In this document: one piece after another, positions 5,978 to 62,338 of the stretch
Numbering within the stretch: position 1 is the first letter of the stretch
How the letters are laid out: each line of letters starts with the position of its first letter
Assembly: GCA_947034885.2 (NCBI GenBank)
Contig: OZ019759.1
Coordinates: 14,944,501 to 15,008,500 of the forward strand
Origin: Thuidium tamariscinum
Taxonomy: Eukaryota; Streptophyta; Bryopsida; Hypnales; Thuidiaceae
Length of the DNA stretch: 64,000 bases
Direction: 5' to 3'
Translations under genes and position numbers: made by a program
Notes under the pieces: generated by a model
Told to the model about the DNA's origin: nothing
Databases searched by the model: none
Seen by the model: only the letters and a program-made list of their open reading frames with translations

Positions 5978-6047
5978 AAAGAATTGAAAAAACCCGAAAA
6001 AACTATGTAAATACATTTCTACATCTTCATTAGTCACACATCTTGAG

Positions 6048-16130: not shown

Positions 16131-16134
16131 TGCG

Positions 16135-28210: not shown

Positions 28211-28374
28211 CACTAGTAGAAAAATAGTGAACAGATTAACAAAACATCAACAGTTTTTTGTTAATTTGGATACTGCAATTACTTAATTCACATAGTTATC
28301 AAATTTTTGTTAATTTGGATAAAAGTACCCAATTCTTTCTGTTGATTTGGACACTCTTTTTTTTCCAGGAGAAG

Positions 28375-30273
28375 TAATCATGCTCCTCAAAGCTCAAACT
28401 TCTGGGGTCTTCAATTAATACTTGCAAATGGTTGGCCTTTTAAAAACTAAAAATTCACTGAAACTCAAAGTTCATCCTTCAAACCATGCACATAGCTTTC
28501 TTGTATAAATTCCCCACGTAGTCTTCAATTCAATTGTTTTAGAGCAGTTTATGAAGTCTACCGAAAATGCCCTAAAAAAATTTGGAACTCTGTACAAACA
28601 TGTATACTACTGAACCAGTTATAGAAAAAATACTCCTACTTCCAGAAAATCAGAAAGCACTGTTTAAAGATATAAATTCGTTTATTGACATTACGTGTAA
28701 TGAACAAACGCTCATGTACTTCACAAAGACATTGCATAGGGAACTGGTCTCCACCATCTCTGGCAGTTGTCATCACTATGTTACTTGAACATGTGCATAT
28801 ATATATAAGTCACACTCACTAAAATTTATCTAAGAATATCATAGAAGAGCTGCCCTTTAGCTCCTACCTGCACATGCCAATTCATGAACTCATTCCCCCA
28901 TTTTTTTCTTTAAAAAAAAATCACAGAAATAGAGCACTCAAACTATTTAGACTTCAACTTCAAAACTTCGTTGCAACTGCAGAAACACTCCCAAAGCAAT
29001 TTCTATTCATGTATAAATGCATGTGTACAACATCCATTTACATAGTCAACATTGCCACTGAAGAATTTCATTCAACTTGAAAGATCCTACTTCCCTCAAT
29101 CTTCTACTGTATCCAGAAACTGTGTGTTTCTATGAAATAAGGACACTGACTAAGTTTCAATGATACACACAACCGTCCCCAACACGTACATCTACACCTC
29201 TTTTGTGCTAAGTCCTTTAACTCCACATCAGAACCTCTTACGTGCTAATTGGAGTGTTGAACTCCACATCAGAAGGAAGTTACGTGTAGGGCATATGTCC
29301 CTCACAAATTAAGTTTATGAAAAGGGATTAGAACTACCTTTTCCTTCATGTATGCTAGTCAGTACCTAGACCATCTTCTTTTCTTGAAATGAATGTAGAC
29401 TTCAATACACTATCTTCATTCCTGTACCCAACCAATATAATACCCAAAATTCCATGTTAAAGGAGGAAATTGTCCTCACTCCACCTCTGCCTACTGAACT
29501 AGAAACTTTTGCTTCAACCAACATGAATTACTTCATTTTAGAAATTAGGCTTACATGATTCCCATCTCTACTCTCACAGAATATTTTGGTGACATAAATC
29601 ATGCAACAACTAAAATAAAATAAAGATCTTCTCTACTGGTTTGAAAATAAAACAACATGCACAGAAGGGGTAAACATACTCGTCCTTCAATGATTCATGT
29701 CATGTTTCTATGGGATTCTTCTCCAATATTTATGAAATCGTTCTCTCTCTACACCCAAACAAGTATCAACTAATTCCCATTATAAAATCTCATCAAACAT
29801 TTGTGATTCATCCACAATGAAGGCCTCACCCATACATACACTTCTGAGTTTTTTACACATTGTCTTCCCCACATGTCCTTGATTAATTCTTAATAGTTCA
29901 TTAGTTTCCACAGGAGTGCCAAAAAACTCTATAATGCTATAATTCCTTTTCAGAAATCAAACTATGACACCCTCTTATTTTCTCCACTCTTTCTTACACA
30001 GTTACTTACTTTATTTTCTCTTACCATGGTCATTCTGGAAATACAATGACCATGATTTCAAAATTCTTCATTGCCATGTTCTCTATAAATAATTGCTTCA
30101 GTCAAGTCCATTTTACTGAAACAAACAATCAGGATTATCACGTTCACTTCATAGACAATTGCATTGACACATAACAATACTTCCTAAAAATGCTGGGTAA
30201 TTAATCATCAACATCTTATCTAACTACATTGCTTTATAAAATGAGCACTTACCTCATCTACAGATTTGTATTT
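28375..30273. other. Noncoding left arm of the giant CACTA
   Basis: AT-rich, only short chance frames. Lies between the left subterminal repeats and the 3' end of the transposase gene; probably 3' untranslated and spacer DNA. Confidence 0.5.
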
Positions 30274-33200
30274 CTCACAATTCGTCCTCTGAGGACTCTC
30301 TAACATCCCTATCAAACATCACTGGATTTTCTTGAAGCCCTTGGTTGAACAAGTCATTGAATTCAAGGTCTATGCCTCCTGCAGCTTCATTAGAAAAACT
30401 TTCAGGATCTTCATCTCCTACCTACAAACCTTCATAGTCTGCATTTTCCCCTATGGCAAACATTTGTGGCTCCCCCTCCTCATCTGCTTCAATATCAAAT
30501 CTCCGTCCCCTCACCTCAGTGCGTAATACTACTTTCCAACCTGGTTCGTCCTCATCATCAGAGAAAAACACCTGCTGACAATGAATAGGGAAAGCAAATG
30601 ACTCATATGCAAATGGTACTCGTGCTCTAAAATTTGCCATGGTAAAGCCCCACTCGTCTTTTTTCATTGTGGCATTCCTGCCTCTGTAGTTTGCTTTCAC
30701 CCAATCACAGATAAGGAGCAAAACACAATGTCCTCCATAGTCTAGCTCTACAATCTCCTCTATTTCACCCACTTACTCCAGCTCACCATTCACAATGTTC
30801 TGGTCTCGTCTCCCCGAACGACATGGTTGTCTAAAAATAGCAGCTACTCCTGAGTCACGAGTACTGGTGCTGCTCTGCTCTGCACTCTTCACTCGAAAGT
30901 GGTACCCATATGCATACATGCTTTTATATCTCCTGGCGTTAAGAGAAGGCATTTTCGATGAGTCTTTCACATCTTGCTCAATCTCTTTTCCCTCCTAGAT
31001 AGCCTTCTTCACATCTTCTTCTAGCCATTCTGCAAATGGTGGGATCTCTTCCATTCTGATGGGATATGGGGCTCCTCTTCTACCAGCTCTATGTGGGTGT
31101 CTTCGACGAAGTTCGTTTCGTGCATCTGTCCTCTCTTGCCATATTTCCTCATACCTCTTGTAATGCAATAAAATTTTTATTAGGCCTTACCAGAACCACA
31201 TCATCAAGATCATAATAGAGCATATAAATTTTCTTCAGGGTTTAGGGGCTTCCCATTTTTTTAAATCATATACATGTTCTACAGTTGTTCATATAGTGAT
31301 GTAGGGGTTCAGAGTAATCCCATTCCAGTCCCTAGTCAGTAGTATTCAAAACAAATCATTAATATATTCACTCTCTTCCTCTCATGTCATACATATGGTA
31401 TAGCACACCTTCCACATCATGAAGATTATGGACATGTTTTAGTCAAGTTCACTGTTTTCCGCCCTCCCCCGATACATATCAATTTCTTCACTAAGATTTA
31501 GAAGGCAATACAAATTAATGCTTGGACATGAAACTTCTAGCAATTTTCCATGAACTCCTTACATATAACATCTCTTCCCTGTGGCTGTCAAAACTAATAG
31601 TGCTCCAACTTATTTTCATATTTCTCACTTTCTTTTCTCTATTTCCCTAATTTCATATGAATATAATAATAGGCATATTTATTATAAGCGACACTGTATA
31701 CATTCTGATACATTCCTATACACAAATTCCTGAAACACTATTACTTCTCCACTACTGATTTTAGAACAAACTCTGGAATTTTAGCCAAGTGTTCATTTTT
31801 TGCAAATTTTTAATTTATTTTGAAAAGGGCATGAAAAATTTCAGTACAAAATGAGAGAAATTTTGCCAGTTTCGGGATCACTGATTCCAATTACCTTCAC
31901 CTTGATACCATCAATTCAAGAATACGGTTGCCTCTAATCCACTGACAAATTCAACAAACCTTTCAATACAATTGACAAAACATGGAAGTCAACAATAAGT
32001 ATGTTCCATGACACACTGTTGTTTGCATTAAAGAGTGACATGTATATAATACAATACCATATTTTATTTAATCTTCTGAGTTCATTTTATTTCAAAATGA
32101 TCAACACCCTCAATTATGAAGCTATCATGATGTAAAACTCTCTCTTCCCATAAACTTTTTCCTCACGTTCTATTGTTTACAAGACTGCACTACACATCTG
32201 AGGGAGACCTTCTAATACCTGAGTACTAAAGTGGTTTTTAAAATTCAATCTTCAGAAAACATTATACCAATAACAACTCATATATTTGATTAATTAATGC
32301 CTTCCTATTTCCAAAAACATCCTCCAGTACTTAGTCACCTCATGTGAATGACATAAACATATTTTCATCCACTAATTCCTTTGGAAACTACAATATGCTT
32401 CTGAAGTGATTATGGGAGAGGTACATTTTGCTTTCTTCAATGTGTAAATACCATACATTCTGCATACCTGTTTTTCCCAGTGACCACTTCTTCTGAACTT
32501 ATGAAACTCATAACTAACTTCCTGCGTATCTTACTTATATAGAACAACTTTGTGTACATCCCAATTGTTTTTCTCCTCTGCAATGGAATTTCTTTTCAAT
32601 GACTCAATTTCCTCGTTAAATGTAATCATGCACACAATGTAGATTTCACTGTGAATGGGCAGTTCCTTACCTATGGCTACTGAAGTCATTGAACTATGAA
32701 ATGGTTACTAAATTCAATTTTAAAAAGGTTGCATCATTTCAAAACTTGTTCAATGTAATGCTTCTTTAATTAAAGTAATTCTCATTTAATTCATAAACCA
32801 TTATGCCATAATTGTAATTGCCCTTTCCAAATTATACATTAGACAACACTTCACGTTATCAATCTCAAATTAATGTACATTATAAATCTAAGATATAAAT
32901 CTGGAATTAATCCTTTTACCTCACAAACACTGAAATGTGAAGTTGCAGACCGTACTACTTAGTGACATCATTGAAACTGATTCAAAGAACACTTCTGATA
33001 TATTCTAGCTAATTCAATCAATAAAAAGAAACCGCTTTTCATTTGTGCATGCCTTCCCAATGCAAACAGTTTTGTTTGGGACACTCACCTACAAAATGGT
33101 TCAATGTGGGATGCATTGTCCAATATGAATTTGTGCATCGCACTTCTTAGTTCCTCAGACAATACTCTTGGCTTCCCTTTACCCTCCACAATCTCGTCCA

Positions 33201-36200
33201 CCATAGTTGGCTCCTCTTTGTCATCCCAAATTCTTCGAGACGTCATATTATACTCGGACATATACTCTATGATGAAACCCAATGCCTCTTCCGCTTCATA
33301 CCCAATAGCAATGCTGCCCTCAGGCTTTGCCAAATTTCTGACATATCCTTTCAAATTCTTGAAGTAACGTTCAAAAAGATACATCCATCTTGTATGGACC
33401 TGACCACAAAGAAACAACTCTTCGACCAAATGGTTTGGCATGTGGGACATGATGTCAAAGAAAGCTGGGGGCATTTCTTTTTCCAATATACACATAGTCT
33501 CTGTTGATTCAGCTTTCATTTGCTCCTTCTGGTCTCGGTTGACTGATTTAGCACAAATCTTTTGGAACAATCTTCCCAATCGTATGATTGCACCAGCAAG
33601 GTGCTTGTTTGAAATCTTTCTGTAGCACAACGGTAGAATCTGCTGCAACAATATATAGAAATCATGTGACTTCAAGCTGCTTAGCTTTCCCTTGCTAATT
33701 TTTTTATGTAGTGCTGAGATATAATGGGTAGGGGTCCTCAGATTCTTCAACACGCGAAATACCTTTGCCTTATCACTAGCTGACAATACATATGAAGCAT
33801 TTGGCATGTGCAATCGATTAGGGTTTGGACCTCTACCTCGTAAATGGAGATGAGGTCTTATTCCACGTGCTTGCATGTCGGCTCTCACAGCTGGTGTGTC
33901 CTTCTCTCCCATTGTGGTCTTCAAAATGTTCTCTGATAAATTTTTTTCACAATGCATGACGTCAAGAACATGACGCACCAGAAGATCCTGAAAAACAAAA
34001 TTCCTGTCAAATTTCCTTCATGTGAAAGTAGTCTAGGAATGCAAGAATTTCTAATAAATGGATTCATGTCTTCTAGAAAGAAAGCCAAGAATTTTATGTA
34101 CAACTCCACCTCACTCTCTCAAAATCATCCAAGATATCATAAATGTGTTCATTGGGCCCTTGCACTCTCTTGCACAACAGTTACAACATTTTTATTTTCA
34201 TCATGGAGTCAACTTTTCCAGAATGAAATGACAAGCAATTTGATACAAAACTAGGAGACACACTGAGACCCGTTCCGCTTCCACATGGCAAACAAAATTT
34301 TAGGTTCTACATAGAACCACACAGCACCCATCAAATACTTCCTCTGTAATTTATTAACTTTACAAAAGGTTCAGTCATTCCAGGGCACTTACACTTCTAA
34401 AATATCTAGTCCAAAAAATATCCTTTCATGACACCCTCTCCTTCCCTTAATAATTAATTTTTCAATGTCTCCTTATCTGAGGCCTCGACAATCTCAGTCT
34501 ACCCATTTTTTTGGCAACCCTCACAATAGGCCATTAGTTCCCTCTCGAAGCATTTCCTCATGGGTCAGAAAACAAATTCTCAGTATTTCAAACTTGTTAT
34601 TCAAGTGACAATAAATAAGGAAAACTGCAACAAAGCTTTCACATTCTATTCCAATGATACAAGAGAACAAAACTACTACTGGAATCTGAAGTAGGGTACT
34701 TCTGCACATCCCTTATTACATGCAAAGAGAGATTATCTTCATGCATGATGCATACCAGAATCCCACTACACTCTCCATTTGTTCACTTTTCAAAATTGAA
34801 CATATTACTACATTTAAAATGCACATTCTGCCAGGAAAATCTGCCAAGGAACAAAATGTAATGGACATGAACTCACTACTTCATAATCAAAGTTCTTTTT
34901 CCCTCAAGTTCTTACAACTGGAATCCAGAATGCAAGACTACCAATAATTATGTTCAGTCATTTTAGATTCCTTCAGCTCAATTGTTGTTTCCATTACGCC
35001 TTCACTTTCTCTATTCTTCATATTACTATACCCAATGTGCACTTGTTATTGGATTCTATAAAATGTACTAGGAATTTGATACACAAAATTATCTAATATA
35101 GTGTACAAAAACTTTATTCAATGTTGTTTCTGTATGAAAATAAAGATTACATGTCAAACATATTTTATGGTTTACGGTTTACGTTTGAATTCTATAAACA
35201 TGTCTCCATTGCAAGAACTAAACATATCTCCTTACCTTGAGTTCCTGATGCAAAAAGAAATACAACTTCATAAATTATATAAAACTTAATTCAAAAAATT
35301 TGGCTTCCAATTGAAAGATTTATTTCTCTCTAGTTCTATATTATTCAGAATTTCAGATGCATATTTGGCCACTTCATTTAAAATTACATATAACAATATT
35401 TTATGCATACATTTTGACAATACACCTCTGCAATTGTAAGTAATTACCAAATTTCCCATACTTGGGACATCTACCTCATATTAAATTACTGAAACTTCAT
35501 TTCCATCTCACGCCATGGCTAATTTAAATTGATAGAGGCTCAGAAAGCCTTCCTTCAAGTTATTTGTTTGTATAATGTCTGCTACAATTTATAAAATACA
35601 TCAAATACACTTCTTAGAGTCCTTCAAATCACTGCCCTCTTATTATTGGATGCAATAAGTCAAACAATTCAATTGAAAGTCAACACACTTCTACTGCTAA
35701 TTCAACCAAATTAGGAATTCAATAACATACACAAAGTAACTCCATAGAAGATGTGACACTGGATCTACATTACCTCGTTCCAGAAACATATATGCATGAC
35801 AAATGACTAACTCTAATATTTAACGCTTTCAACATATTAGGCTAAAGTAAGGCGTTTAGTAAATACTCATGTCGATGTAAACAAAGATAGCTAGAATTTT
35901 AAATAAAATCTTCAAGTGGGGTATTAGAGGATAACGTTTACTGCAATCCTATTACTGGGTTTCAATAGCAATGACTTCTGACTCGTATTTGAAAAATCAC
36001 TTTCTTTAAGTTTGGAACTGAAGAAATTCCAAGTGGTGGTCGCTTTTTTTGATTACTGATTCAAGACTTCAATTTCAATTTGAATAATTTAAATCTATTT
36101 CTTCATAATCTAACAGAATTTAAACGACTACAGCTCTCAAGCATTTACAATCCACGACACATGCTCTGGCTCTGTATTAACAATAGACGAAAACATATTT

Positions 36201-38330
36201 GCTATCATTCTTAGGTAACCTTTAAAAACCCCAGTCACTGTGAATCTATATTTACTAGTCTATTATTATTTCAATCACAGTCAGAATGATATGAAAGGGA
36301 ACTTTTCTTTCTACATATAATGGTTAGAATTATGTACCTTCCAACAAGGAAGAAGGAAAAAAATGCTACAACGCTTGACACCATGCAACTTCACTGGATC
36401 TTCGTCTGAATTCTCCACTCCACCATCCTCCAAAAACCTTGACCTTTGCGTCCCCCAACGAAAAACTTCTTCACCTGTTGCTCTAGTAGGAGGTAATTGC
36501 CACTCTTGTTCATTATTGAATGCTGCCCTTTCCCTACGGAATTGGTGATTACCTGGCAAATAACGTCTCCCTCCAAGGTATATCATTTTTGATAAAAGCA
36601 TCTTATGCTCACTACAAGTTTCAGGCCCACAGCCAGGACAACCTTTATAACTGTGGACTTGTTGTCCTGATAGTAGTCCATATGCTGGGAAGTCATTCAC
36701 CGTCCACATTAATAGAGCTCGCAAACTGAATTTCCTTTCTCCCGATGGCTTAGACATATTCACTGCTGGAACTCCTTCCCATAGTTTAAGCAAATCACGT
36801 ACAACTGGAGCTAAGAAAACATCAATGTTCTCTACTGTTGGCGCTTTTGGGCCAAGAATTAATACAGCCAATGAAATGAAGAATTTTTTGGTCAATAACC
36901 ATGGTGGCAAGTTATAGATGGTTATTAGAAGAACCCACGTGGAATGCTTCACTGCATTATTCTTAAAAGGAATAACCCCATCTCCTACTAATCCAAGTTG
37001 CAAATTTGTTAAAACTGATGCAAAGTCAGGATATGCTTCGTCTATTGCCTTCCATTGATCACTATTTGCTACAGACCGCATTTTCTGACTCCAGGATTTG
37101 TTAGTACTATACCAAGTCATATGCTTTGCTACTTGGGGACACCTGAACATTCTCAAGAGATGTTTCACAATATCAAAATAACGGACCACTCGTTTAGGAA
37201 CTTCATTGGAACCTTCAACATAACGTTCACTACCACATACTGGACAAGATGTAAGGTCCTTGTTCTCTTTTTCATACAAGACATGGCCGTCAGGGCAACA
37301 ATGGACTTGCCTATGCTTCAATCCCCACTTCATCAAAATACTCCTCACTTCATAAGTTGTTCTTGGAAAGCAATTTGATGAAGGTAGCACATCCCTAGCG
37401 AGCCATGTGAGCAAGGCATCAAGGAATGTGTTTGGCACAGAGTAAAGGCTACAAAGGGAGAAAATTATTATAGCGCATTGAAGACGGTTCACCTGACTTC
37501 CCTCGAAGACTTTTTCTGTTGACTCTCTTAAAAGATTCTCCATATCAAAATCATTCAACTCCTCATTCTCCTCAAGGTTTTCTTCATCGCTGATTACTTC
37601 TCCATCTTCATTCATAACAAATTCATGAATCTCATCTACTCGAGCAAATGCATCTCGGGCCATAGTCTCAATGTCAATGGTGTTCCTTCCTAGCCAAGTG
37701 AACGTACCGTCCTCTTCTTCATGATTTGATCGACGATACGGTTCCTGTTCCCTATCCGGATGACTGGCTGGGCCCCTTACATTCCGACCATCCACTGTCT
37801 GCAAGCCAAAAAAAAAATTTAGTCTCATCTCGTAGTGTAATATTGTTCATGGACAATAGCAAAAGTGAAAGATACCTACCTCTGTTTTAACAAAATTACT
37901 GTTTTACGTGAATCATTAACAATAGCTAGTTTTGAGTTAATGTTCACTTAATATCACATACTTCACATCTGTGATTGAAAACTCACGTTCTCTGGTTCCG
38001 TTACATATATAACAAGCTAAAGTTATATTCCGTCATTACACAAATGTAGAATAGCACTGTTGAAATATGGTTTGAAAAGCGGTTCATAAGAAGCAGTTCT
38101 TTGCTTGTTATGATTATCAGTGCACGTTCTGAAGAAGTTTTCTCACTCACCATTACTGGGTAGATTAAGAAAGGATCCCTGCCTTCCCGGACATGGTGCA
38201 TAGCAACTGTCTCCACTTTTTGCACTCAGCTCCTCTGCATCTATTGCAAGCGCATGGGTATTCCGTTAATCCCAAGCGCTTTGCTATGGACCGCTTGATG
38301 TGGTAAGCTCTGGAAAGTCTTTGCCGCATG
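30274..38330 (-). pseudogene. CACTA transposase gene (TNP2 / Transposase_21 type)
   Basis: Exons on the minus strand: about 38330-38151 (CACNRCRG then VETVAMHHVREGRDPFLIYP, a Transpos_assoc-like zinc motif, with a one-base frame change between the two parts); 37798-36338 (CCPDGHVLYEKENKDLTSCPVCG, then the TNP2 core with NLQLGLVGDGVIPF, TVNDFPAYGLLSG and CPGCGPETCSEHKMLL); 33987-33089 (DLLVRHVLDVMHCEKN, then the DUF4218 region with MPNHLVEELFLCGQVHTRWM); 31154-30274 (DUF4216-like EIVELDYGGHCVLLLICDW). Splice sites are consensus, and the junction CWK|DLLVRHVLDVMH matches the uninterrupted family sequence, confirming a 2.35-kb intron. Three in-frame stops in the last exon (near 31000, 30773 and 30422) mark it as inactive. 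TNP2 proteins cut and join the element ends in the nucleus. Confidence 0.8.
33988..36337 (-). other. Long intron of the TNP2 gene
   Basis: 2350 bp between donor GAAG|GTACAT and acceptor TTTTTCAG|GATCTT (minus strand). AT-rich, with no nested element ends or coding segments recognised. Confidence 0.7.
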
Positions 38331-39818
38331 CTTCACAACAATCGCACTTGTGAAGTTCAAAACTAATTCTACATGACTCGTTCCCAAACATACATCTATC
38401 AACACTACTTCATAGAGTCACTGATCGAAGTTCTCATTATTGTTCCAAGTTGTTAGGTAGCAGCTTCCCTTCACTGCTTTGTTGACTTTACATTACAGTT
38501 GTACACAATGGTAATTGAACGTTTCGCCACTTGAACTTTGATTTAACTATAAAACATCAAAAAAAAAAATTATGCAAGAGTAGTTAATGCAAAACCGGTC
38601 CCCACTCCCCAATAAGAAGAAACCGCAGTGTCCACTCCTTATTAAAATGTAGACTTCATGATCCTAGTAACCATCTTTACAACGACAGCATTTCAGAAGA
38701 AGTAAATGAAACCATATTATTACAGACTCCGCTAATGAGCCTCCACCTCCAAGGCTTATAGAATTACACCAGTTCCTTTAGACGTGACTTTATCCAAATT
38801 CATCTTTTTTGCGTCAGCTCCCTACCAGCTACAATGCAAGGTCCCAACAGGCACACATATCTTGAAGGAATTCCATTACTAGTTTAACTCTACAATCTAA
38901 TATAACCTTGTCAATAGAATCAACTGCTACTTTAGATTACCATTTTAAAATTGTGAGCCAGGTAGTGTAAAATGCCCAACTCATTATGTGTAGCAAATAA
39001 AGGACAAACTCGAAGTCTGAGCACGTCTATGATGTAGCGGTGTTCTCTCCACAGCGTTTGAACGTTGGATTCCTCAATGCATTTAATGACCTCACATAAA
39101 GAAAGCACACATCCTCTATCTCTATCCAAGTTCATGTACCTTTACCATTCTATAATCTCCACAGAGTTTGACAAAGTAATTAATAGAGATGATGATTTTT
39201 TACGAGTAGAAAGGCAGGTTCAAATGAATAGTGATATTGGTTCACAAACCTGTGCATCAATACTCAACATCTCATTGACGAAACGACAAAAAAATATTCA
39301 AACTAATACTCTATAGTTGTTGACTAAATCTTGAGGGAATTCATTAAGGAGTCAGTATCAACAAATGTGATCTTCATAACATTATCACTGACGTCCCTCA
39401 AAGCAAAAAAGGTGTCTATATAGTGCAAACTGCAGAAGTTCATGCACATCATTCAAACAAATGTGGAAGTTCATGGAGACAAATTCTGCGTGGATAAACA
39501 CACTCACAAACATTAACTACTCAGCATGGCCACAAGACATTTGTATGTGTCATGCATCAGAGGATAAGAATACACATACCTTCTCCGTTGGTAATAAAGA
39601 ACGTGCTCACAACTCCAGATCTTCCTTGACGTCTGCAATCAAATTATCTGAACAAAATAACATGAAAATAAATGTCACAACACTTTGCATCATGCGTGCA
39701 TTCAAAATTATTAGTAACATAATTAAGTTGACATGCACATGGTCTTCTGCCAAGTAGACAGTTCACTGTAAATGCAATAGTTACGATCAATGACCGTGTC
39801 TTCTTATATTAAAAACTG

Positions 39819-49722: not shown

Positions 49723-52700
49723 GTGCGTTTATTTGGACAGTTTTATTCGTGAGTGGATGAGATTGTTGATTTTAGTGATTTTGCTGCGCTAAATCCTAAT
49801 TTTGCTGCAGGTTGGTGTTATTGTTATAAAGAGAATTATTACAGAGTAATGTTATTCTTGGAAGCACTGTGTACTTCCATGGATGTGTGTGCGTCATATG
49901 AAGTTCATTTTAGGTTAATGTATGTAAAATTTTGAAGAAGTTCTCAGTCCCTTGTTGATGTTCGTTTTCCGTCACCAGGAGGTCCCCTCTACTACTTTAG
50001 CCTGTTTCTATATCCTCCACAGAGTTTATTCGTTGGACGATGTTGTAGAGAATGTATCATCAACGTTGTGGTATGATTATAGATGGTTAGCCTTGGGGTT
50101 GATCTCTTCTACTAGGTCGCGTTGGGAGGTACTGGTATGCTGTAGGGAAATAATTGATGTGTAAGGTTTATTGCTGGCGTTCTGCAGATTGGGTAGAGGC
50201 ACCCGACAGGTTTGATGACGAATTTCTTATAGCTTTTTGAGCCTCGTCTGCCGTTGGAATGCGAACCCCCTCCGGAGAAGCTAAAATGTCTCCAGTATGA
50301 AGGTGATCTTTCTCCTCATGAACTCACTTGAAAGAGTCAATTGTACTCTTTGTTTCTGATTTTCCTCATCACGTTCTAAACCTTCTTTTAGGGTTTCATT
50401 ATAAATATGATGCAGGATTCTGACCTGAAGTCTCATGGCTTACGGTTTTATTTTTGTGTTGGAGGTGCTATGGTGTTACTGAAACTGCATAGGCATGGAA
50501 ATATGCCACCGAATACTCCGGGGCCTACTTTCATTTTTTTTTTCTGGTAAATATTGCAGGCATCGGACACTTTGTTCAGCATTTTGCGGAGCGTGGAGAT
50601 CTTGAATGTGCTCCTCCTGTCACTAAGGGAGAAACTCCTGTAAGAGTCCTCATCTTTCGTCAGTGACTATGTCAAGTATTTCTTCTGATTTGCATTAGCT
50701 TCATTGTCGTGGGTTGGTTTATGTTGATTCTCTCTAGGTCTTGCACTTTATGATATATGTGCTTTCTTGTCTTATGGTGGTAATTCCATATTGTTAAGTT
50801 CTCCAATATTGGAACAATGACATTGGATTATATGTGAATTGATTGCAATTGAACCATAACAGAGATGTGCAAGGATGCAGAGTCAAAGGCGTGCTCGATT
50901 CCATCAACTTCGATTGGAGGAAGGAACAAAGAAGGCACTTGATGAACTGGCCAAATGTATGTCTTATTTCCCATGGGTATATTTTCGGGATCTTTGTTTT
51001 GCTGAGGGCCATTACACACGGTGGACTTTTCATTGCAGTGTAGCTTCACATTGATTCGCTCTCTTTAGTCTCTATTTAAAAGTTGTTAGTGTTTGCACCT
51101 TGATGGTTAATCAATTAGGGTTCCTGGAACCCCATGAATCTCTCCAGATTCAAACCCTCCCAGTTCATCAGTCATCACAGGTTCGTCATCCTCTTCCCTT
51201 TTTTGGAGGGTTTTGGCCCACCCAACTACAACACCGAGTCAAAAACGAAAAGCTAGTGTGGCCTTTTCGTGCATGATGTACTTTCAGTACACAAGTAGCA
51301 TGCCATTACTGTACATGTACAAGTCATTCAGCTTATTAAGCCTTAGCTTCAATTGCTTCCTGAGGTTTGAAGCCAACTTGAAATTTGCAAATGCAGATGC
51401 AGCTCCACTTCCACATTTGTGAACTCCTTCATTGCTTTGCTCCCGTTTCTTGCGTAGTGGTTGATCGAATTCTTGGGTCAGTCATGCTTGCGCCTCAATT
51501 TGTTGGTTCTTTAGTAGTAGATGGGATTTATTGTATGCCTTTGAAGGTTTATTGATTTTGTGTTGAATCGTGAAGTGTAGGATCAGTTTTGTTTGCAATT
51601 TGGTGTTTTGTAAGGTCAATTGAATAGGGTTAGACGTGAATTAATTGCAGGAATGAATCAGTTTGATTGGTATTAGTGGATGGTATTGGAACCCTCGGAA
51701 GGTTCAGTATATTTTGTATCTTGAAACGTGAAATGTAGGATCAGTTGTTAGTGTTTGCACCTTGAAGGTTAATCAATTAGGGTTAGACTTGAACTATCTG
51801 ATCAGTTTATGTGCACTTAGTTGGTATTTGGGGATGGTATTGCAAGCCTTGAAGGTTCAATGAATTTAGAGTTAAACGTGAATTTTATGATCAGGTCTAT
51901 TTGCACCTTGTTAGTATTAGTGGATGTTGTTTGTGAGGTTTGACTGTTTCGGATTGAACGCAGTCACAGGGCGGTTAGTTTACCATTCGTTTTTGATGTT
52001 TTGTCTTGCAAGAAATTGGTGTTACAAGTAGCAATTGCGTGTGCAAAGATTGATTGTTCATGGGGGACTTCGTTGTGTGGGAAGAGTTATTGTGGATGAT
52101 GATCACTTTAAACCCTAAACCTCGACTATGGATTAGTTCATGGATGCTTTTGTAGTGATGAACAATGGTGGGGTTCGGGAAGAAGCTGGCGGAGAGGCAA
52201 GTTCCAGCATAGGAAGCGTAAGTGTCTTCGGCACGAATTCAAAATATTAGTTTTGGGTTAGACATGGGAACATTGAGAGGGGTGATGCGTGAACAGGAGC
52301 TTCGCAAGTGATTTCGTGAAAATTGTCCTGAATAGTTTTCCTTAGTCTTCCTTAGTTTTTCAATTTTGCAGTTCCTGGTTTCTAATTTGGGTACATTGCA
52401 CATGATGGGACTCCCGTGTGTTTATCGAAACCATAGGTCAATTGAATCCGCAACACAACATTCCCGAGAATCCTCGTTAAACACCGTCTGAATAGGCATT
52501 TTCTGAAGCATCGAAAGGACTACCTGACACCTTGTTTTGCAAAGTTGAACTGAATTAGAACAAGGGAAAGCTCTTTAAGCCAATACGTTTTTGATAATGT
52601 CAGAACTTTATTTTTTTGCTTATTACGCTCTGCTTCAACATGGCTTTGCTCTGAATAACTCATTGTTGGCATTGCTCTCCAAAGTTGTAAGACTACTACT

Positions 52701-52869
52701 TAAGAATGTCATGTAGGGGACCTCTTTTTGGTAAATTTTTTACTAAACCCTTCGCTGGACGGCCTACACTCTTGCCTATCATAGACCCTACGTGCTTTGC
52801 CCTTGAGGGTTTTCAATTTATGAGATTCTCTGAAGTATACGAAACTTACTGCTTCTGTTTGTTGGTCCA
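49723..52869. other. Mostly noncoding stretch inside the giant CACTA
   Basis: Contains exon-like bits with acceptor and donor signals but no recognised product: 50200-50290 (WVEAPDRFDDEFLIAF), 50570-50640 (GHFVQHFAERGDLECAPPV, with flanking CAG| and |GTAAGAG) and 50860-50955 (MQSQRRARFHQLRLEEGTKK). These may be remnants of further captured genes. Confidence 0.3.
51560..51935. repeat. Degenerate direct repeats
   Basis: Two to three diverged copies of a module containing CACCTTGAAGGTTAATCAA, AGGGTTAGACTTGAA, TGATCAGTTT and GGTATTAGTGGATGGTATTG. A further partial copy lies at about 51085-51120 (TTAGTGTTTGCACCTTGATGG). Confidence 0.5.
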
Positions 52870-55485
52870 GATATTACATAAATTACAAGATGATGAAGAG
52901 GAAGGTCAGGGACTACAGTGAGAAGCTGCAGGATGGCCACAAAGATGAGCGTAATCGCATTCTCAAAGAGTTCTCGGATTTGCTTGATCATTAGGTATAT
53001 GTCACCGACACTTTTTACATTTATGATCTGCTACTGATATCAATTCCTTCCGTATGAATGTTTTGTTGCCCAACCACAACAAAGTCAAAGGTGTTCCAAT
53101 AGTAGATGGTAAAGAACTACAGAAACCTTACCGCAAACGAATACTACAGAGTTTGAGATCCCTTTCCCATTTGCTTGAATTTTCTTCCGTGATTTCTTTA
53201 GACTAAGGTAGAGTATACGAAAACCTTTAGGAACTTGATCCCGCCTCCCATTGACCCTGTTACCAACAACTCATCTTTTTCAATACACTTGGTTGGCCTT
53301 CAATTAGGAAATTGGTGTAAGAAAGAATGACTTGGCTAAAAGTCTATGACTCCTTAACCTTGAATGGAAATCAGAGTTTCTCTTTTCTCCTTTAAATAGT
53401 AGTCTAAAACCTTGTACTTTGAATGATTGCTTAAGAAATTTGAGGGATAATCGTACATCGGGTGATAAATTTTTTCATTCCAAATGAGCTTGACTCTTGT
53501 TCCCAAAGTGAACTCTCTAGTGAGTTTTCCAATGAAAGAAAATTCCTGTGTAAATGCTTAAACTATTGCGAATAGTATTCTCTACCTTAACTTTTTTTGT
53601 TGACGTTTCTTTTCAGGTTGAAAAGATGGTTCTATTTTTGTTAATCAAGCAAGGTCAGTTAGCTTTGTAGCTTTCTAAACTAGCAGATGAACGTGAAGCC
53701 GAAGATGATGCAGAACAAGGAGGAGTGGAATCTGAGCGTCGGGAGAGATTGCGTGATGCTTACCATTCTGTGGGAGAGGATTTGATGTCCCTTTTACGTT
53801 TTGTGGATCTCAATGCAACAGGTCTGCGCAAAATTCTGAAAAAGTTTGACAAAAATGTGGGATACCGGTTGAGTGATGAGTATATGGCCACTCGTTCCAA
53901 CCACCCTTTCTCGCAGCTCCAACACATCTTTCGACATGTGGTTAGTATGCAAATCCCTTGTTTCACCCCAGAAGCAATTGAAATCCATCCAGACTTCTTT
54001 AATGTCACAACTTCAGTGCTGAAAATGCACATGTTTACCAATGAGTTTGGTAACATTGGTGGCTGTAAATACCCAAACCAAAATCCAATGTTGACACCCT
54101 ACTATTGTGAAAATGAATTGTTGGATGCAAAAGTTACATTGAAGAGGTTGTAGGACTTGTGAAGGTGATCTTTACGGACTTGTTGAACTCCTTATTGTCA
54201 CATTCATATGCAACTGCTTGTGATATAGAAGAGTGTGATAGTGAGAGCGGGGAGTGAGGGCCGAATTTGGTGTATCTGTTTCCTAGGGCTTTGTGGGAGA
54301 AAGTGATTTTAAAGAAATCTGGGTCTATAAATCTCCTCGTGTCCTTGACAAACTTCTCTCGAGGAGTGGTAGAATTAACTGGACATGAAAAAATCAGAGT
54401 CATAGTGAAAGACTTGATGGATGTTTCTGAATCTTTGATAGGGAATCGGTTCAATGGTGGCCACAATATGACGAAACCTTGTGGAGCTTGAAAACAAAGG
54501 GAGACCCGTGACTTCCATATATGAGCAGAAGTCAAAGTTAGGCTTTTAAGTAAAATCCTTCTTCTCACTAATCTGAATTCATTAGAAATTGCTAAGGTTG
54601 CGGGTTTAAGGGTTTAGGGGATAGGAATGTCCAGAAAGCATAAATAGTAGATATCATTTAATAGTAAAATTTGATCAAAACCATCCTGCAGGACCCTATA
54701 ATGGAGTCCATCAGAAAGGCAGAAGACAGGCTTACCAATACAGCAGGCGTTTTGCGTTTCCTTGGTCAGCAGTTTGTGAGTGGCCGTGGTGATGTGCCAG
54801 ACGAGGAAGAGGATCTTGAAGAGAAAAATTATCATTTCATGTCACTTGTCCTCAACCTTGTGAACACGTATCTTTACATGGTGAGTGTTTTAGTCTCTTT
54901 CCAAACCTTCGTTGTTTACTTCCAAATCGTTGTATTTGTACTTAACATTTTTTAAGTGCCTGTGACATGAAACCTTTTGAGAGCAGTGTCAGCTAAGGGT
55001 TATTTAAAGAAAAATCATGCCCAAATCAGAGCAAATCAAGCGAAATTAGCTCAACCTGTTCAACTTTACTAAACATGGTTTCAAGGATTCCTTTTCAACC
55101 CAATTCAGAGAATCCAGAGGGTTTTCAACAAGGATTCTTGAGAATGTTATGAATAGTAATGAAATTTCTTAACAATATGAAAAGTTGTGATTATTGGGTC
55201 CACCATTCAATGCGTTTTTCAGGTGAATACATATATCATTGTTCCAACAGCTGACAAATGCGCGACAAGCTTGGGAGTTGCACCGACACTATGTGGGGTG
55301 ATTATTGGCTCTATGGCTATTGCCCAATTGCTTTCTTCTGTTTACCTGAGTGCTTGGTCTAATAAGTCCTACTTTGGACCCTTGGTTTTTAGGAGCGTCA
55401 TCCTTTGCCTTGGGAATGTGTTATATGCCCTTGCCTATAGTTTCAACTCCGTGACCGTGCTCCTCATCGGCCGCTTGCTGTGTGG
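52870..55485 (+). pseudogene. Captured SPX-MFS phosphate transporter (PHT5/VPT-type) fragment
   Basis: Four recognisable exons with consensus splice sites: 52870-52994 (YYINYKMMKRKVRDYSEKLQ, SPX helix), 53617-53940 (VEKMVLFLL, then [20 protein letters not shown] with the inositol-pyrophosphate-binding lysines KILKKFDK), 54692-54880 (DPIMESIRKAEDRL, ending LVNTYLYM) and 55223-55485 ([18 protein letters not shown], then [21 protein letters not shown], the first MFS helices, ending RLLCG). This is the vacuolar phosphate transporter family, SPX sensor plus MFS channel. The first exon and everything after the early MFS helices are absent, as is the short exon expected between the second and third. 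Two TAG stops occur (52992-52994, where the family has Gln, and about 53668). Retained introns show DNA-level capture. Confidence 0.85.
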
Positions 55486-58400
55486 GTAAGACATACAAAT
55501 CCAGCCCCCCTTAGTGAATAAATTGAAGTTTGATCACGAATTTATGATGTTTTCTTCTTCATGGTGAAGAGAGAATTCACCCTTGAAGAAAATGAACTTG
55601 TTAGAAAACGAAACTTTATTTAGCGGTGAATGAGGGTTGTCATTGGGAGTCAATGAGGCTTGTTGCTCTAATCTGTGCCAAATCATCATATACGAACTTC
55701 TCGCTTCCTACTCTCCTGCCAAATTAGTTTATTAAGTTTTAAGACCTAAAAAAGTTAGTTCTCTATCCTTGAAAACTTGTTTGTTGAACTTTTAGCAATT
55801 GTCTCATTTCTTGGACTCTTGGGAATAGCAAGCTTATGGGACATTCACGCTCGGTCTTTTTGAGAAGTCCATACTTTGACATAAGATCATGAGAGGTTTT
55901 ACATAATTGTTACTATACAGAGTGTGTTGGTTTTATGTGTAAGTGGTTGGGATTGGTAGATAAATGTGAATGAGATATTGATGTGGTTTAAACCTTGACA
56001 TAGGCTCATAAACTCATTTACATATTGAGCTAACATTGGGTGTGAACGAGCCATTAGCTAAATATTGTATTGAATGCAGTGTGTTGATTATTGTAATGCA
56101 ATTCTTGGCATTTGTATACCAAATTTAGTGTTATGATTAATGTGGTTGCGTTTTGTTTCACCTCTGTAGTGTCCCGCCTTTAGACACTACATTCTCATCA
56201 TGTTGTAAACAATGTATAATTAAGTTGTAGTGTGAAAGTACTATTGTTTTCTGGAGACGACTTCTTCCTTTAAAGATTATATTTAAGGTTAGGAACTAAG
56301 GTATTTTGTCTCCTATGTTAAATCACTGTCTTCAGTTTCAGATTCTGATGGTCTTCTTTCCTTTTGGCTTTTGGCAGATGACGTTAATGACCCAGATATA
56401 GAATGAGATCCTGAGAAGACGTTGTTCGTTGTAGGCATTGACTATTTCATGTGAGGCTATTTCATGTGAGGCTACCAAATAGATTTTCTTCATCTTCGAC
56501 TGCCCTAGTTTCCTTGCTTCGTGTTGGATTATTTGTTGCCTGTTGGTTTTCCAGACATAGTATGAAGCCGTGCCTGGTCTGAATTCCCATCGAACAATGA
56601 GGCTGTGGTCGCTTGTGATGGGAGTTGTGTGGCAATAGTTTGGAGACTTTTGAATTCCTTGGCGTATATGTTGGACTTATAAGTAACATGGGGGCATTAT
56701 TTGTTGATTGTTGTTGGGATAGTTTTTGGGGGCTTTTTGTTTTATATTCTGGGTTTCCACTATGTTTTGACAGCCTAAACCCTCACTCTCACTTTGTGAC
56801 GTTGACGATGTTTCTCAGTGTAAAGTTGTATCCCCTTCTGCTTGTGCAGACCATCGATTTCTTGGAAGTGTCAGCATTATTATCACCAGTGCAGGCTGAT
56901 ATGCAGGGTAGCTATGGTACTTTTCACCTCTCGGTCCATTTTTTGGCTTGCAGCCCGCACTCTTGAATTCTATGAGTTTTTTCCAAGTAGCATGTGTGAA
57001 ATTCTTCCAGTGTAGATGACGTTATGAATGTGCTTGTCCCATTTTTACTGTGGATTCTATTCGTAGTTTCCGTGCGCATGCCAATAATTGTAAGGAGCCT
57101 TGGGCTTAGTGTAGGATGGTGACGTCTGTGTGGTACGAGACCCCTTCGTGTTTCTGTCATAGAACATCGGTTATTTATTGATCAATGCACGTTGCACGAC
57201 TAAGCGCAGTCACTAAGTGTCGTGCTCATCCTTACTTGTGTCCTGTCCGTTTGATGGAGGAAAGCAACCAGCATACTCCTTCAGGAAATGGAATTATACA
57301 TTGAAGTACGTCCTGTCCTCCTTTGAATTCATGCATTTCCTAACGTCATACCCTGCTTCCTCGGAATGCTTTGTTTTGTAATCAATTTTTGTGATTAACT
57401 TGAGCATGAGCCTGAAGTATTGAAAGTAAAAGCATTGTATTGGAAACTGTTTTGTGAAGAACGTTTGGATGGGAGCGTTGGACATAATTCGTGCAGGCAA
57501 TAATTTACTTTTCTATTCGTATTGCAGGTTGCCTTTAGCATGACCGTGCTTTTGAGGAGGTTGCCATGAAAATAGCTGATGAAGAGTGTGATGAAGTTGA
57601 GTTCAGGAATAAGTCTGGCATGTTGATAATTGCATATGCCTGGATTCTTGTTTGGGCCTTCGGGGTGATAGTGAGGTCAAGAGTTCACTGCTTAGTGACT
57701 TCTGACATGTTACGCCATTGCTTTCATTTTCCTTTGGTGGACTTCGGTCAACTGGTCTCTCTTCTCGGAAGATAATAATGAATATGTGGTTTATGGTACT
57801 TTGTAGGAAATTGCAGAACGAGAGTGTGGAGATTAAGATAGAGCGTTGACCATGAACCCATTCAACCACTGGAATTGTAAGCCGGCCTATGTTTTGAGAA
57901 TTCTCTTCGACCCATTGGGTTCGTGCAATCTCTTTCCTTTAGGGGAAGGGGCAGTTCAGTGTGCTTGTATGTTTCTCCTTCGACTAGATCTTGTGCTTCA
58001 TTGTTGCCCTCATTTTGTAGAACATTGTAATGTTCTTGAGGCTGATCGGTAATGTTTGTGACGTTATTTTCTACTTCAGTTCTGTCGACGGTTTGTTTTC
58101 TGTGTTGAAGGCTGGAAGCCTTTGCAGTTGAAGTCATTTGTGGCTGGAAGCAGGTTGTGCTCTTTCATTTTCTTCATGAATCGTTTTGTTCAGAGGCACT
58201 CGCGTTTGTGCGTGCGGGTCATTTAATTTGTGGACCACAGACCCCAACGTCTCTGAAACTAGTAACTGCGCTCTGAATTTTTTTCATTAACACGAAAGAA
58301 ATGCATCTATGACGTTAACCTCATGTTCTTTTCTATGTGTCTGAGGATGATTCCTGTTTTCGCATTCAAATTTGCAAGGTCCATGTGATGACTGCTGGAC

Positions 58401-59811
58401 TTAAATATAGTTCATGGGACAAGCTTCGGTGTGTGGGCGTTTCTGCCTGTCCAAAACACTTTGAGGGTGTGCCCAACATTTGTGACATTTGTCAGATCAT
58501 TATACGTGCGCTCTTCATTTCTTTTTGTCTTTGACTGCAGAACGATGGCGATCTGGAAGGCATGATGAGAATCTGTGTTTGTTGTGTTAGGTGACATGGG
58601 AAGCAGTCTCAGTGGATATCATGGCAGACTGCATTTGAATAGGTTCGTTTACCATCCGACATCTCATGCAATATTCCGTTCCAGCATTTGCCGAACCTCA
58701 GTGTGTCACTAATATGTGTGTAGCATTAAATTGACATACACACAGAGGCCTCACTGAAGGAATTTCTTCCTAAACCATAAAGCATGTAATGAGTTTGCAT
58801 CAAATAGACTGTAATAGGTGACGTACTTAACTTTTTCCTCTTTGTGCTTTTGAAATGTGGACAAGGAGAGAGCGCCTTCTGTCTATTGGTGTGGAGGATT
58901 TTGAAGAGAGGGGAAAGCATGTCCCCAAGAGTTTGTTTGTTTGCGTCCACCTGAAGTATAAGTCTACGTCAGTTCTATTGGAAGTTCCCTTGATTTCACA
59001 AGTCGACGGAGCTTTTTGTTTTTTTAATTTGAAATACAAGACGGCAATGCCTACAGTCTTAGTCCTTTAGTAGTGATAGTTGTCTTTGAAAGAAATGAGC
59101 TTGGAGGATGTTTGATTTCCCCGTTTTGTGTAGGGGTATTTTAATCTCAAATTTTTTTTTGTTTTCATCAACGAACAAAAGTGAAATGAGCTTTATATAG
59201 CTTTTGATTGCCCAGATTTCGTCCAGTGTATTCGGTATACTTATGGTCATTCCTAATTCTGGAGCGTAGTTTGCAGTTGACAAATGAGGGCTACCAAAGT
59301 GGACTGTACCTTCGGAAATGAGGCATATCAATGCGTGAAGTCTGAGGTGCACATAGACATGGAGATGCAGAAGCTTCTCAAAGCACGGACGAATGGGTGG
59401 AATGCGTAAGGGTGGGAGCAATAGAAAGATTTAGCATTGCATGTGGAAGCGGAGGATGTTGACGCTAGTTTCCTAAAAAAAGAGCCGGTATTTATAGAAA
59501 TATTGTATAATCAAAGGGTCTCTGCGCTGCGGTTGATGAGGTAGTATTCATCATGAAATCAGTAGCGTGAAGCCCTCAAAATGTTATATTACGTAAGACT
59601 TACCTGTAGTTTTAGCGTCTCGATAGAAAATGTTGTAACTAAATCGCTAGGGTATTGCTGGGTAGTCCGATTAACTCATGGGACGAAGGGGTTCCCTAAA
59701 CCCTAAACCATATGATCATTTTACATCTAAATGCCGATGCTTAGCAGGTCAGTATTGTCTTAATTTGTAGCGAGAGAGAGATGCATGAACTCTAATCCTT
59801 GGCAGTCATGT
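55486..59811. other. Noncoding stretch between the SPX-MFS fragment and the B3 gene
   Basis: No convincing gene. Short exon-like pieces occur near 56380 (DDVNDPDIE after TTGGCAG|) and 57545-57610 (RAFEEVAMKIADEECDEVEF), neither recognised. A short CCCTAAACCCTAAACC motif is at 59696. Confidence 0.35.
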
Positions 59812-60298
59812 TCAGTTGTTGTCGACTTCCTCTAGTAGAGAACAGGAAGTCACACTTTCTCTGCAATTAGAATGCAGGACGTTGAAGCAGGATTTTTCAA
59901 CCAGCTGGAACTTCAAGCGGTCTCCTTCCTGGACGTTGTGGCAGCGTACGAAATCCTCCCACCCATCTTCGAAAGATACCTCTGCATCTTCAGTGAGGCA
60001 TGTGACATTTACTTTGACGTTGACGTTCACTGGCCATCGAGGTTTGTCTCCTTCGTAACCTAGACGGACTTTTTTTTGAAACTTGTCTCCATGGTCTCGG
60101 ACAAACCAAACAGGAACCTTTTGAATGAACAAGAAGTATAGTTAAGTTAGGAGAAGAAGTAGTGAACAAAAAGAGAACTAGAAAACAGGTCAACAAAATG
60201 AAGTAGGAGGAACTCACCAAACTCTTAAAAGAAGATGCCTTAACTGTTTTCTCAAATGATTTCTCTCCATTAGCGACCGCAGCATTGTAAGAAGCCAT
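59812..60298 (-). CDS. Small B3-domain gene with intact two-exon frame
   Basis: Exon 1 is 60298-60218 (MASYNAAVANGEKSFEKTVK then ASSFKSL) and exon 2 is 60117-59812, joined in phase 0 across a 100-bp intron with donor |GTGAGTT and acceptor CAAAAG|. The 128-residue product reads SFKSL|VPVWFVRDHGDKF, then EVSFEDGWEDFVRCHNVQEG and DRLKFQLVEKSCFNVLHSN. These are the ordered marks of a plant B3 DNA-binding domain (FF/SFK start, PxxFV, W..F, EGD.L.F). It is close to REM/VRN1-type B3 domains and contains almost nothing else. There is no stop in the model. It sits within 2.3 kb of the right end, on the strand opposite the other captured genes. It could be expressed as a minimal DNA-binding protein; expression is not shown. 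Confidence 0.65.
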
Positions 60299-62100
60299 TT
60301 CGGAAGGTCTGATGTGCTTGCAAAATCGTAAAAGCAGGACCGTAGTGTGAGAGCGTTGTGGGAGATAGACTGCAGAGAGCGAGGGGGAATGCAGGATTCA
60401 ATTTGAGGGATGTTGGAGGTGGAAGGGAAGCACAAATCTCGTTCCAAGCCATGTAGTTGCTTTTCATGTACGGAGAAGTCTGTAATGAATTCGTGAAATT
60501 GCTTGAATCTGTTGATTAGAGCAGACTTGTGTGAAATCTTTGAAGATTTGGCAGTCACTTCCATGGACCAGCCCAGGTTAAAGAAGTAAACAAAGTAATT
60601 AGTAATATCGGGGAAATCAGTGAGGAAGTGACATTGCTGTCCAGACATCATGAACATAAATTAATTTGAATACACAAATTAGCAGAGAAAATGAAAAAAA
60701 AAAACTTTACCTCTGTAGGTAGTTGATGTGACCGAAGTCATTGGGAGGGAATTTCATCTGGAAATGGGTAATGGCATGGCCCTTGGCTGAACATGAAAGA
60801 GTTGGTGTACCCCTTGCACTACTGGTGACCATGGAAGAACATGAAGTATTTTTTCTTAATTAAGGAAAAGTAATGAATTGCATAAAGCTTGGTAGTTTCA
60901 TTCTTGAATTGTTTGTGTGTGTTATAGAAGATGTAGAGTAGTCGTGAGTATTTACAAACGTGGAATATAAAACAGACGTTTTCGTGTTGTGTGTCGCAAC
61001 ACGAAACTTTGGGAACTTTGGGCAGGCCATGCAATTCGTTCGTCGGAGTCATCGACAGTGAAGTCGGCATTGGAACAAGCGTGAGTGCAATGACTTTTCT
61101 CGTGAAGAGCGAGTTGCAAGTGTTGGTAGTTTCATGTAAATGCATTCTCTAACTCTCTGGTAGTCAAAGTCCGTGGAGTCCTTCAGAAAGTAGGTGTGTA
61201 TGAAGACAATGTGAAGTCATGGGATCATTGAAGCTGAAGGAAGTACATTGCAGTGCTTAACAACTTAGCATTACCGTTGTGGAATTATTTTATCTTTGGA
61301 TTAAGGATGATGTGTACATGCAGTCAGTGAGAATTGAGTAGCTTAGCTCAATTGAATAGCTTAGGTCAATAATGTCATTATAGGGATGCAGTTCCTAGAC
61401 AAGTAAGGGAAAAGAGACTGCAAATGACTCAAGGAAGTTGCTCGATATATAGGTATAGGTGGGAGTTGGAATGATTTAGTATTATGAAGGATATGAGGCT
61501 TCCGAGTGATTGATGTCAGAGATTTCTTCATCCAAGGGGAATGGGGTTGTACAAAACCTCAAGAAAGGCAGATTATGGAGGTGAAATCAAAGGGTGTGCA
61601 CATTATTGAGAAAGCACGCTACAGTGAACTGAAGGGACCTACTTTCTGCTCTGGGGTGAAAGGCATCTGCAAGGTCAAGTTGTAGTTTTAATTAGTGGAA
61701 TCCTAATTAGTGGCATGGGGTAAGAGTGGCTGGAACATTGTAGGAGTTTTAGTAGTTATTTGTATGCCAGCATGTGAAGTTCACATTGCTGAGGTGGCAC
61801 ATGTAGAATGAGATAGGGTTTGAAGTAGGAAAGTGAAGTGCTAGAATTTGAAGTTTGGAGGTTGTCGTGCAGTCAGTTTTGTCAATGTTAATGAATTCTA
61901 CAAAATTGTAATTTACGTAGAATTGCAATTTTGAGTTCCAATTACTACAGCTAATAAAATGAAATTGACTTGAAGCGCATGGCAGCACAGAGATCATACC
62001 TTCATATGTGCAGATGAATAAGTTCTGTCATTGACAGTACCGAAATGACAAGGCAAATATGAATGCTGTGGATGTGGGAAAGACCAATAATGTCCATCAT
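60299..62100. other. Noncoding right arm of the giant CACTA
   Basis: Upstream side of the leftward B3 gene, so it may hold its promoter. Only chance frames otherwise. The subterminal repeats of the element begin near 62100. Confidence 0.45.
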
Positions 62101-62335
62101 GACATTAACAAAAAATAGAAGCAGTTAACAAGTTTTTGTACATGTTTTAGTTCACAATCAATAGTTTCATGTTCAGAAATCTATCCCTTTTATGTTTTCC
62201 CTTCACAAATTTTTGTTGAAAAATCAACACTTTTCTGTTGAAAACTACCCAAATTAACACGTCCAAATTAACAAAAAAAATCAACACTTTTCTGTTATTC
62301 TTTTGTTAATTCGGTCACTGTTTTTTCTACTAGTG
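62100..62335. repeat. Right subterminal repeats and terminal inverted repeat of the giant CACTA
   Basis: Repeated GTTAACAAGTTTTTGT, AAAAATCAACACTTTTCTGTT and CCAAATTAACA words, ending CACTGTTTTTTCTACTAGTG. The last 90 bases closely match the right end of the small CACTA element at 6340-6431. Confidence 0.8.
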
Positions 62336-62338
62336 GAT

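Follow-up and report, generated by a model that had tools for sequence, protein, structure and literature searches.

According to the En/Spm model of plant CACTA transposons, the product of tnp2 cuts and pastes the element and a second product acts on its subterminal repeats. Here we describe a 34-kb CACTA element of Thuidium tamariscinum that carries nested pieces of host genes and a B3-domain gene. It lies in a stretch of 64,000 nucleotides, referred to below as the window (contig OZ019759.1, here C11:14944501-15008500; the other contigs are designated likewise), and the genome surveyed for its relatives comprises 363.2 Mb in 19 contigs.

Soybean Tgmt* is a CACTA element of 20.5 kb (PMC2613891), and the CACTA elements of grapevine (Cactavine) measure 10-25 kb, with a ULP1 domain in five families (PMC2528002). 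The Tpn1 family of Ipomoea nil consists of very long, gene-capturing CACTA elements (PMC8195511, citing Hoshino 2016 and Kawasaki and Nitasaka 2004), and an Ipomoea nil CACTA element of 40,619 bp is cited in the same paper. CACTA elements of Chenopodium contain captured fragments together with extra domains (PMC8978399), and Pack-CACTA elements carry host gene fragments from several loci (PMC8903248). ORF2 of CACTA elements is termed a protein of unknown function (PMC4158355).

The Thuidium element resembles En/Spm and other plant CACTA elements in its CACTA ends, 3-bp duplication, subterminal repeats, tnp2 and putative second product of DNA-binding type (PMC2613891, PMC4158355); its terminal inverted repeats, target duplication, tnp2-type transposase and subterminal repeats place it in the CACTA (En/Spm, DTC) superfamily. 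Whereas Tgmt* has one large gene with both functions, here two genes diverge from mid-element within 34 kb and a B3 gene is added. The element is very long and gene-capturing, like the Tpn1 family (PMC8195511); a preliminary description of the window, made by a model from the letters alone, had called it very long for a CACTA element, and long it is, though no record beside the 40,619-bp element of Ipomoea nil. The grapevine CACTA-ULP elements are likewise long with an added domain (PMC2528002), but the gene added here is B3, on the strand opposite ORF2 and near the right end. CACTA ends enclosing captured fragments of several host genes (CK2-alpha, U1-70K and SPX-MFS) are shared with Pack-CACTA (PMC8903248). 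Unlike the non-autonomous Pack-TYPE elements, it has tnp2 exons, present and constrained, and its captures are nested, without transposable element ends at the junctions. It is a real, single, large CACTA element of a known superfamily, and what makes it a variant are the nested cargo and the B3 gene that it shares with relatives.

Limits of the element and its relatives

The element spans positions 28211-62335 of the window (34,125 bp), starting with CACTAGTAGAAAAATAGTGA after ...AAAGAT and finishing with ...TTTTTTCTACTAGTG before GATAAAG. The two copies of the target site duplication GAT can be read from the sequence at 28208-28210 and 62336-62338; matching GAT duplications 34 kb apart had been claimed before, and the coordinates proved exact. 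CACTA...TAGTG terminal inverted repeats are present at 28211 (CACTAGTAGAAAAA) and 62335 (TTTTTTCTACTAGTG), and pairwise alignment of both ends shows that their outermost ~42 bp form imperfect inverted repeats (28211-28252, plus strand; 62293-62335, minus strand). Subterminal repeats of the TGTTAATTT/TGTTGATTT type were found by pattern search as four loose matches at 28234-28350 and five at 62222-62312; within 150 bp of an end lie 9 of the 16 such matches in the element, the remaining 7 being interior. No other CACTA-type end was found within 28211-62335 by exact and loose end patterns, and the window sequence contains no N.

Both flanks belong to a satellite array interrupted by the insertion. 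Its left part, a diverged array, occupies 27228-28210 (Tandem Repeats Finder, TRF, reports 27228-28085, and the satellite match extends to 28206); its right part, with units of ~176 bp, occupies 62339-63876 according to TRF and satellite match and begins at 62339-62341. Once joined by one GAT, the flanks align to a later satellite unit without a gap across the junction, as expected from the earlier proposal that they are two halves of one unit. In a phase control, in which the right flank was shifted, the score of 138.5 dropped to 117.5 near half a unit and reached 170 near a full unit. This is consistent with the proposal and gives no clean peak: the score is not highest at zero shift, since the first right-hand unit is a poorer match than those that follow it.

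Copies elsewhere in the genome define the same ends. The 14-mer CACTAGTAGAAAAA has 244 exact copies (116 + 128), compared with 8 for a reversed control pattern, and is therefore a genuine family terminus. Searches with the terminal ~500 bp, in which the best 40 of 195 candidates for one end and the best 40 of 315 for the other were scored, yielded paired ends at further loci; the preliminary description had suggested a search for end matches and full-length siblings. Three long siblings pair the same two ends: C4:16537994-16577231 (39,238 bp, AAT duplication), C3:35972524-36034383 (61,860 bp, GAG) and C2:3078714-3106407 (27,694 bp, TAA). With the window element included, all four long copies with both ends located have a matching 3-bp duplication, and none of the three siblings pairs an end with an internal terminus, which had been named as the observation that would speak against a single element. 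The duplication, the satellite junction, the three paired siblings and the collinear 39-kb copy described below bear out the view that the whole interval is one CACTA insertion of 34,125 bp.

Short relatives were delimited as well, 11 in number and 0.9-2.5 kb long. Among ten copies of 868-1794 bp found by pattern in fetched loci, eight have matching duplications (the misses are in L023 and L063), and another of 2.5 kb on C8, which opens with CATTA, is flanked by AAC on both sides. A short CACTA element with similar ends is also present in the window itself, at 4775-6431, with an ATT duplication on either side. It interrupts one arm of an inverted repeat, the other arm of which (17112-17125) is uninterrupted with a single ATT and provides a natural empty site; an element with ends of this kind thus inserted with a 3-bp duplication. 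Judged by these delimited copies, the element belongs to a lineage of giant copies (27.7-61.9 kb, four delimited) that coexist with short relatives.

Comparison of the C4 copy with the window element (blastn, E 1e-5) gave matches that keep their order along both elements. Identity is 79% at the left end, 81-85% in the transposase exons, 68-73% over 39.3-40.6, 42.1-46.0 and 46.5-48.7 kb, 72.5% in the B3 region at 59.8-60.6 kb and 70% at the right end; further matches lie at 49.2-49.3 kb and 61.4-61.6 kb. At the same threshold, window positions 49.3-59.8 kb have no match in the C4 copy, and this alignment marks them as copy-specific cargo of the window element. The extra length of the C4 copy includes a 625-aa frame, which has no Pfam match and, judged by eye, is similar to a retrotransposon frame found in the window; because of this frame, nested insertions probably add length in the siblings. 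A possible very large sibling is seen at C2:11.143-11.220 Mb, where ~58 kb separate the transposase match from the ORF2 match and a partial B3 match follows outside this pair.

Transposase, ORF2 and B3 genes

The left half of the element carries the tnp2 gene on the minus strand. Its C-terminal exons, with predicted limits at 30278-31186, include DUF4216 at 30425-30772 (Pfam), and the ratio of nonsynonymous to synonymous divergence (dN/dS) is 0.08-0.15 against two siblings. All such ratios were obtained with a simple Nei-Gojobori script from few pairs, chiefly against the C4 and C3 copies. The DUF4218 exon, also recognised by Pfam, lies at 33088-33993 (dN/dS 0.10 vs C4, 0.11 vs C3), and the Transposase_21 open frame at 36314-37846 (PF02992, E 5e-60; 0.12 vs C4, 0.14 vs C3). 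Putative upstream exons, presumably on the same strand and with approximate limits, would be contained in a conserved segment at 39296-40608, which is collinear in C4 and matched in others. On the plus strand, sibling alignments outline an ORF2 gene region at 42093-48743, whose main exon lies in the open reading frame 46600-47571 (dN/dS 0.30 vs C4, 0.25 vs C3), with a further exon likely near 47620-47745. ORF2 has 123 genome-wide matches and may be putatively called TNPA-like by its position. Of the two transposase-type genes announced in the preliminary description, one is indeed a tnp2 transposase (PF02992); the other is this ORF2, without a Pfam match.

From mid-element, tnp2 runs leftwards and ORF2 rightwards in divergent orientation. 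A genome search with the transposase exon, in which the best 40 of 796 candidates were scored, yielded among the matches listed 20 other loci, 18 of them with an ORF2 match 8-58 kb away and all 18 with the same order and orientation of the pair. Both element ends were located only at C3, C4:16.5 Mb and C2:3.08 Mb among these pairs, and where the two members of a pair are tens of kilobases apart, nested insertions could lie between them. The plus strand has a negative GC skew between the left end and ~43 kb (strongest -0.33), whereas over most of the interval from 43 to 62 kb the skew is positive; a comparable turn occurs in the C4 copy. Long transcription units that diverge at mid-element would account for this turn; a weaker negative skew extends also left of the element, over ~21-28 kb, and its sign by itself is no marker of the element. 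Within these regions, the segments 39822-40400 and 43368-43946 show dN/dS of 0.3-0.6 and stops in some siblings. Neither these two nor the frames 40477-40860, 40925-41353, 42692-42988, 44795-45103, 46600-47571, 54668-54952, 56619-56963 and 59993-60397 gave a Pfam match.

A B3-domain gene, which the preliminary description did not name, lies on the minus strand near the right end. Its main exon at 59815-60141 matches PF02362 (E 4.9e-8, 33.3 bits against a cut-off of 30.1) and is common to four other loci; compared with PDB sequences, it has no significant match (best VRN1, E 0.17). Alignment with C4 suggests a putative first exon at 60215-60298 (minus strand), in a frame other than that of 60217-60330; the latter frame, upstream of the B3 exon, is under weak or no constraint (dN/dS 0.44-1.0). 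A DNA search with the B3 region, all seven candidates of which were scored, found places beyond the window on C3, C4, C5 and C11. Protein identity to the window copy is 81% for C4, 81% for C3, 70% for C11 and 60% for C5, and the remaining genomic B3 matches (75 matches in total) are at most 44% identical. B3 keeps one orientation with respect to its element at all five loci, window included. Located ends enclose the gene in C3 and C4; in C5 it lies ~9 kb inside the right end that best matches the right end of the window element, and in C11 (3.10 Mb) ~20 kb from an ORF2 match.

Neither the C4 nor the C3 copy of B3 contains a stop, and these are also the two best transposase matches (87% and 85%). 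For B3, dN/dS is 0.13 vs C4, 0.12 vs C3 and 0.14 vs C11, the C4 and C3 values being as low as those of the transposase; its synonymous divergence (dS) of ~0.8 vs C3 and C4 comes close to the 0.53-0.72 obtained for the transposase and DUF4218 exons. The B3 gene is apparently under purifying selection in three copies (window, C3 and C4), and these comparisons make it a candidate third gene for some elements of the lineage. A partial 42% B3 match with one stop is present at C2:11.22 Mb, beyond the local tnp2/ORF2 pair. Of the known B3 or auxin/RAV-type motifs CATGCA, CACCTG and TGTCTC, none was clearly above expectation in both elements compared. The telomere-box-like word AAACCCTA, one of the shared over-represented words, was dropped, its positions being scattered and many of them inside the cargo.

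Nested host gene cargo

Positions 49389-58560 form a layered block of host gene pieces, all in plus orientation. The three pieces listed by the preliminary description are real; their nesting is an addition to it. The outermost layer is CK2-alpha, with a left part at 49389-49724 (77% to C2:27228269-27228610, with a peptide match) and a right part of the locus at 56455-58560 (70% to C2:27229124-27231230). The C2 locus at 27.228-27.231 Mb matches CK2-alpha structures, and 513 bp of it are absent at the interruption. Held within it is a U1-70K piece, the left part of which, 49727-51084, is 86-88% identical to C2:16471295-16472663 and C6:4941281-4942650 and has a peptide match, and the right part, 56154-56440, 89-90% identical to C2:16472736-16473025 and C6:4942724-4943013. 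PF12220 in the C2 copy gives this sequence its U1-70K identity, and 72-73 bp are absent where it is interrupted. U1-70K in turn holds the innermost layer, an SPX-MFS piece with non-coding sequence at 51131-56154, 95% identical to an SPX-MFS gene region at C7:22767766-22772773 (5.0 kb; Kimura two-parameter distance, K2P, 0.035 over 4,988 aligned bases). In Pfam its SPX domain is above and its MFS domain below the cut-off. The U1-70K and SPX pieces contain stops, and comparison of the MFS and U1-70K pieces with PDB sequences found nothing.

At the junction of U1-70K and SPX lies a templated filler of 42 bp (51081-51122), 97.6% identical in plus orientation to C7:22768371-22768412, a repeat-bearing part of the C7 segment ~600 bp inside it. 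Inspection of the cargo junctions by eye made no target duplication or terminal repeat apparent. Identity to the best genomic match climbs inward, from 70-77% through 86-90% to 95%; measured in this way, the nesting order agrees with divergence, the outermost piece being the most diverged. Because of this inward rise, the absence of visible target duplications and the copied filler, the cargo would be most simply explained by breaks at a single site that were repaired time and again by copying. Layered captures whose nesting matches their divergence bear on how transposons acquire genes.

The right junction of U1-70K and CK2-alpha also shows a 15-bp tandem duplication (window 56442-56474). Several sequences of U1-70K type that share 86-90% similarity with the captured piece are found at C2:16.47, C6:4.94, C6:26.49 and C7:20.34 Mb.

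Interpretation and neighbouring features

We are highly confident in a joint reading in which one CACTA (En/Spm) element of a giant lineage, with nested cargo and a shared B3 gene, sits in a satellite unit. The element would have inserted into this unit and duplicated GAT, its tnp2 transposase cutting and pasting the ends and ORF2 presumably binding the subterminal repeats as in the En/Spm model. Its right half would have been enlarged by capture, the CK2-alpha piece being interrupted by U1-70K and U1-70K then by SPX-MFS, probably in repeated repair of double-strand breaks at one site, with copying from unlinked loci and template switching. The B3 gene, unlike the decaying cargo, would be kept by selection, most likely as a DNA-binding regulator of the element itself; this role is the weakest step of the reading.

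Several observations weigh against parts of this reading. ORF2 lacks a Pfam match, its main exon is interrupted by one stop in C3, its putative TNPA role is drawn from position and conservation, and two of the 20 listed transposase loci (C11:1.76 Mb and C11:2.02 Mb) have no paired ORF2. The dS values of transposase and B3 are high (0.5-1.3). B3 is broken by one stop at C11 and by three at C5, and its dN/dS vs C5 is 0.40. At C11:3.10 Mb a 70% B3 accompanies a 62% ORF2, and ORF2 loci at 64-67% show no close B3. The distribution of B3, as these matches display it, is patchy and makes it less likely that the gene was simply gained once; it may have been acquired earlier and then lost in places, or elements may have exchanged it. 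As for the cargo, the loci on C2, C6 and C7 are its best matches and count as candidate donors.

Two separate CACTA elements in one satellite array might have come to look like one if their inner ends were lost and the outer ends merely appear paired. CACTA ends are indeed common in the genome, as the 244 exact 14-mers testify, and a second element with similar ends lies at 4775-6431; the matching GAT, the gap-free satellite junction, the lack of internal ends by pattern and the end-to-end collinearity with a sibling that has its own matching duplication leave this explanation hardly any credibility. Nor do we think it probable that the block at 49.7-56.4 kb arrived as a nested transposon with SPX-MFS as its load, in the manner of a Pack-MULE or Pack-CACTA, instead of by stepwise capture. 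The outer sequence of this block (49727-51084 and 56154-56440) does recur at several places in the genome, contiguous there save for the 72-73 bp, but this sequence belongs to the U1-70K gene (PF12220), one junction contains copied filler, and inspection of the junctions by eye shows neither terminal inverted repeat nor target duplication. A nested transposon had been the first reading of this block and was set aside, the outer sequence being U1-70K and the junctions being without duplication.

A somewhat better, though still minor, chance is given to B3 being a mere host capture; the low dN/dS would then stem from constraint that acted on the host gene before elements captured it independently or exchanged it among themselves. 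Plant B3 genes are a large family, the C5 and C11 copies are broken as said, and the distribution of B3 does not cleanly track ORF2 similarity; this explanation received more weight because B3 and ORF2 similarities disagree at C11:3.10 Mb. It is opposed by the uniform orientation in five of five loci, by the position in the right part of the element in copies with located ends, by the closeness of the element B3s to each other (60-81%) and their distance from other genomic B3 (at most 44%), and by the dS of B3 vs C3 and C4, which is near that of transposase and DUF4218.

If, as the joint reading of one CACTA element has it, B3 is retained by selection, it possibly acts as a self-regulator or anti-silencing factor; a seemingly selected B3 inside a transposon is a candidate for either role. 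VANDAL elements reportedly encode anti-silencing factors, in another superfamily and with another protein than the CACTA elements and B3 discussed here. The likeness is one of analogy, an extra gene that could protect its transposon. More specifically, a recruited host B3 might have become a stable third gene that binds DNA of its own element and counters silencing or regulates the element's own divergent promoter, a speculation to which we give little probability. If true, CACTA elements would have an equivalent of the anti-silencing factors that transposons encode, derived here from a transcription-factor domain of plants. None of the papers listed in searches of the open library describes, to judge by titles and the beginnings of abstracts, a B3 gene in a CACTA element. 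What CACTA biology also gains is a set of full-length elements, 28-62 kb long and with their ends located, from a single genome of modest size.

The remainder of the window contains some further features. The inverted repeat already mentioned has arms at 1956-7430 and 16125-19938, which are 97-99% complementary and separated by a spacer of ~8.7 kb; its left arm is the one interrupted by the 4775-6431 CACTA element, and its right arm is adjoined by a tandem repeat with ~146- and ~238-bp units (20044-21195). A possible gene piece at 8428-8886 (plus strand) has a sub-threshold match to an NLI-interacting-factor-like phosphatase (E 7e-4), and a 572-aa frame at 21747-23462 (minus strand) with DUF7869 (PF25273, E 9e-42) is perhaps a transposon-related gene. 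Six telomere-like CTAAACC units occur at 26336-26377, ~1.8 kb left of the element.

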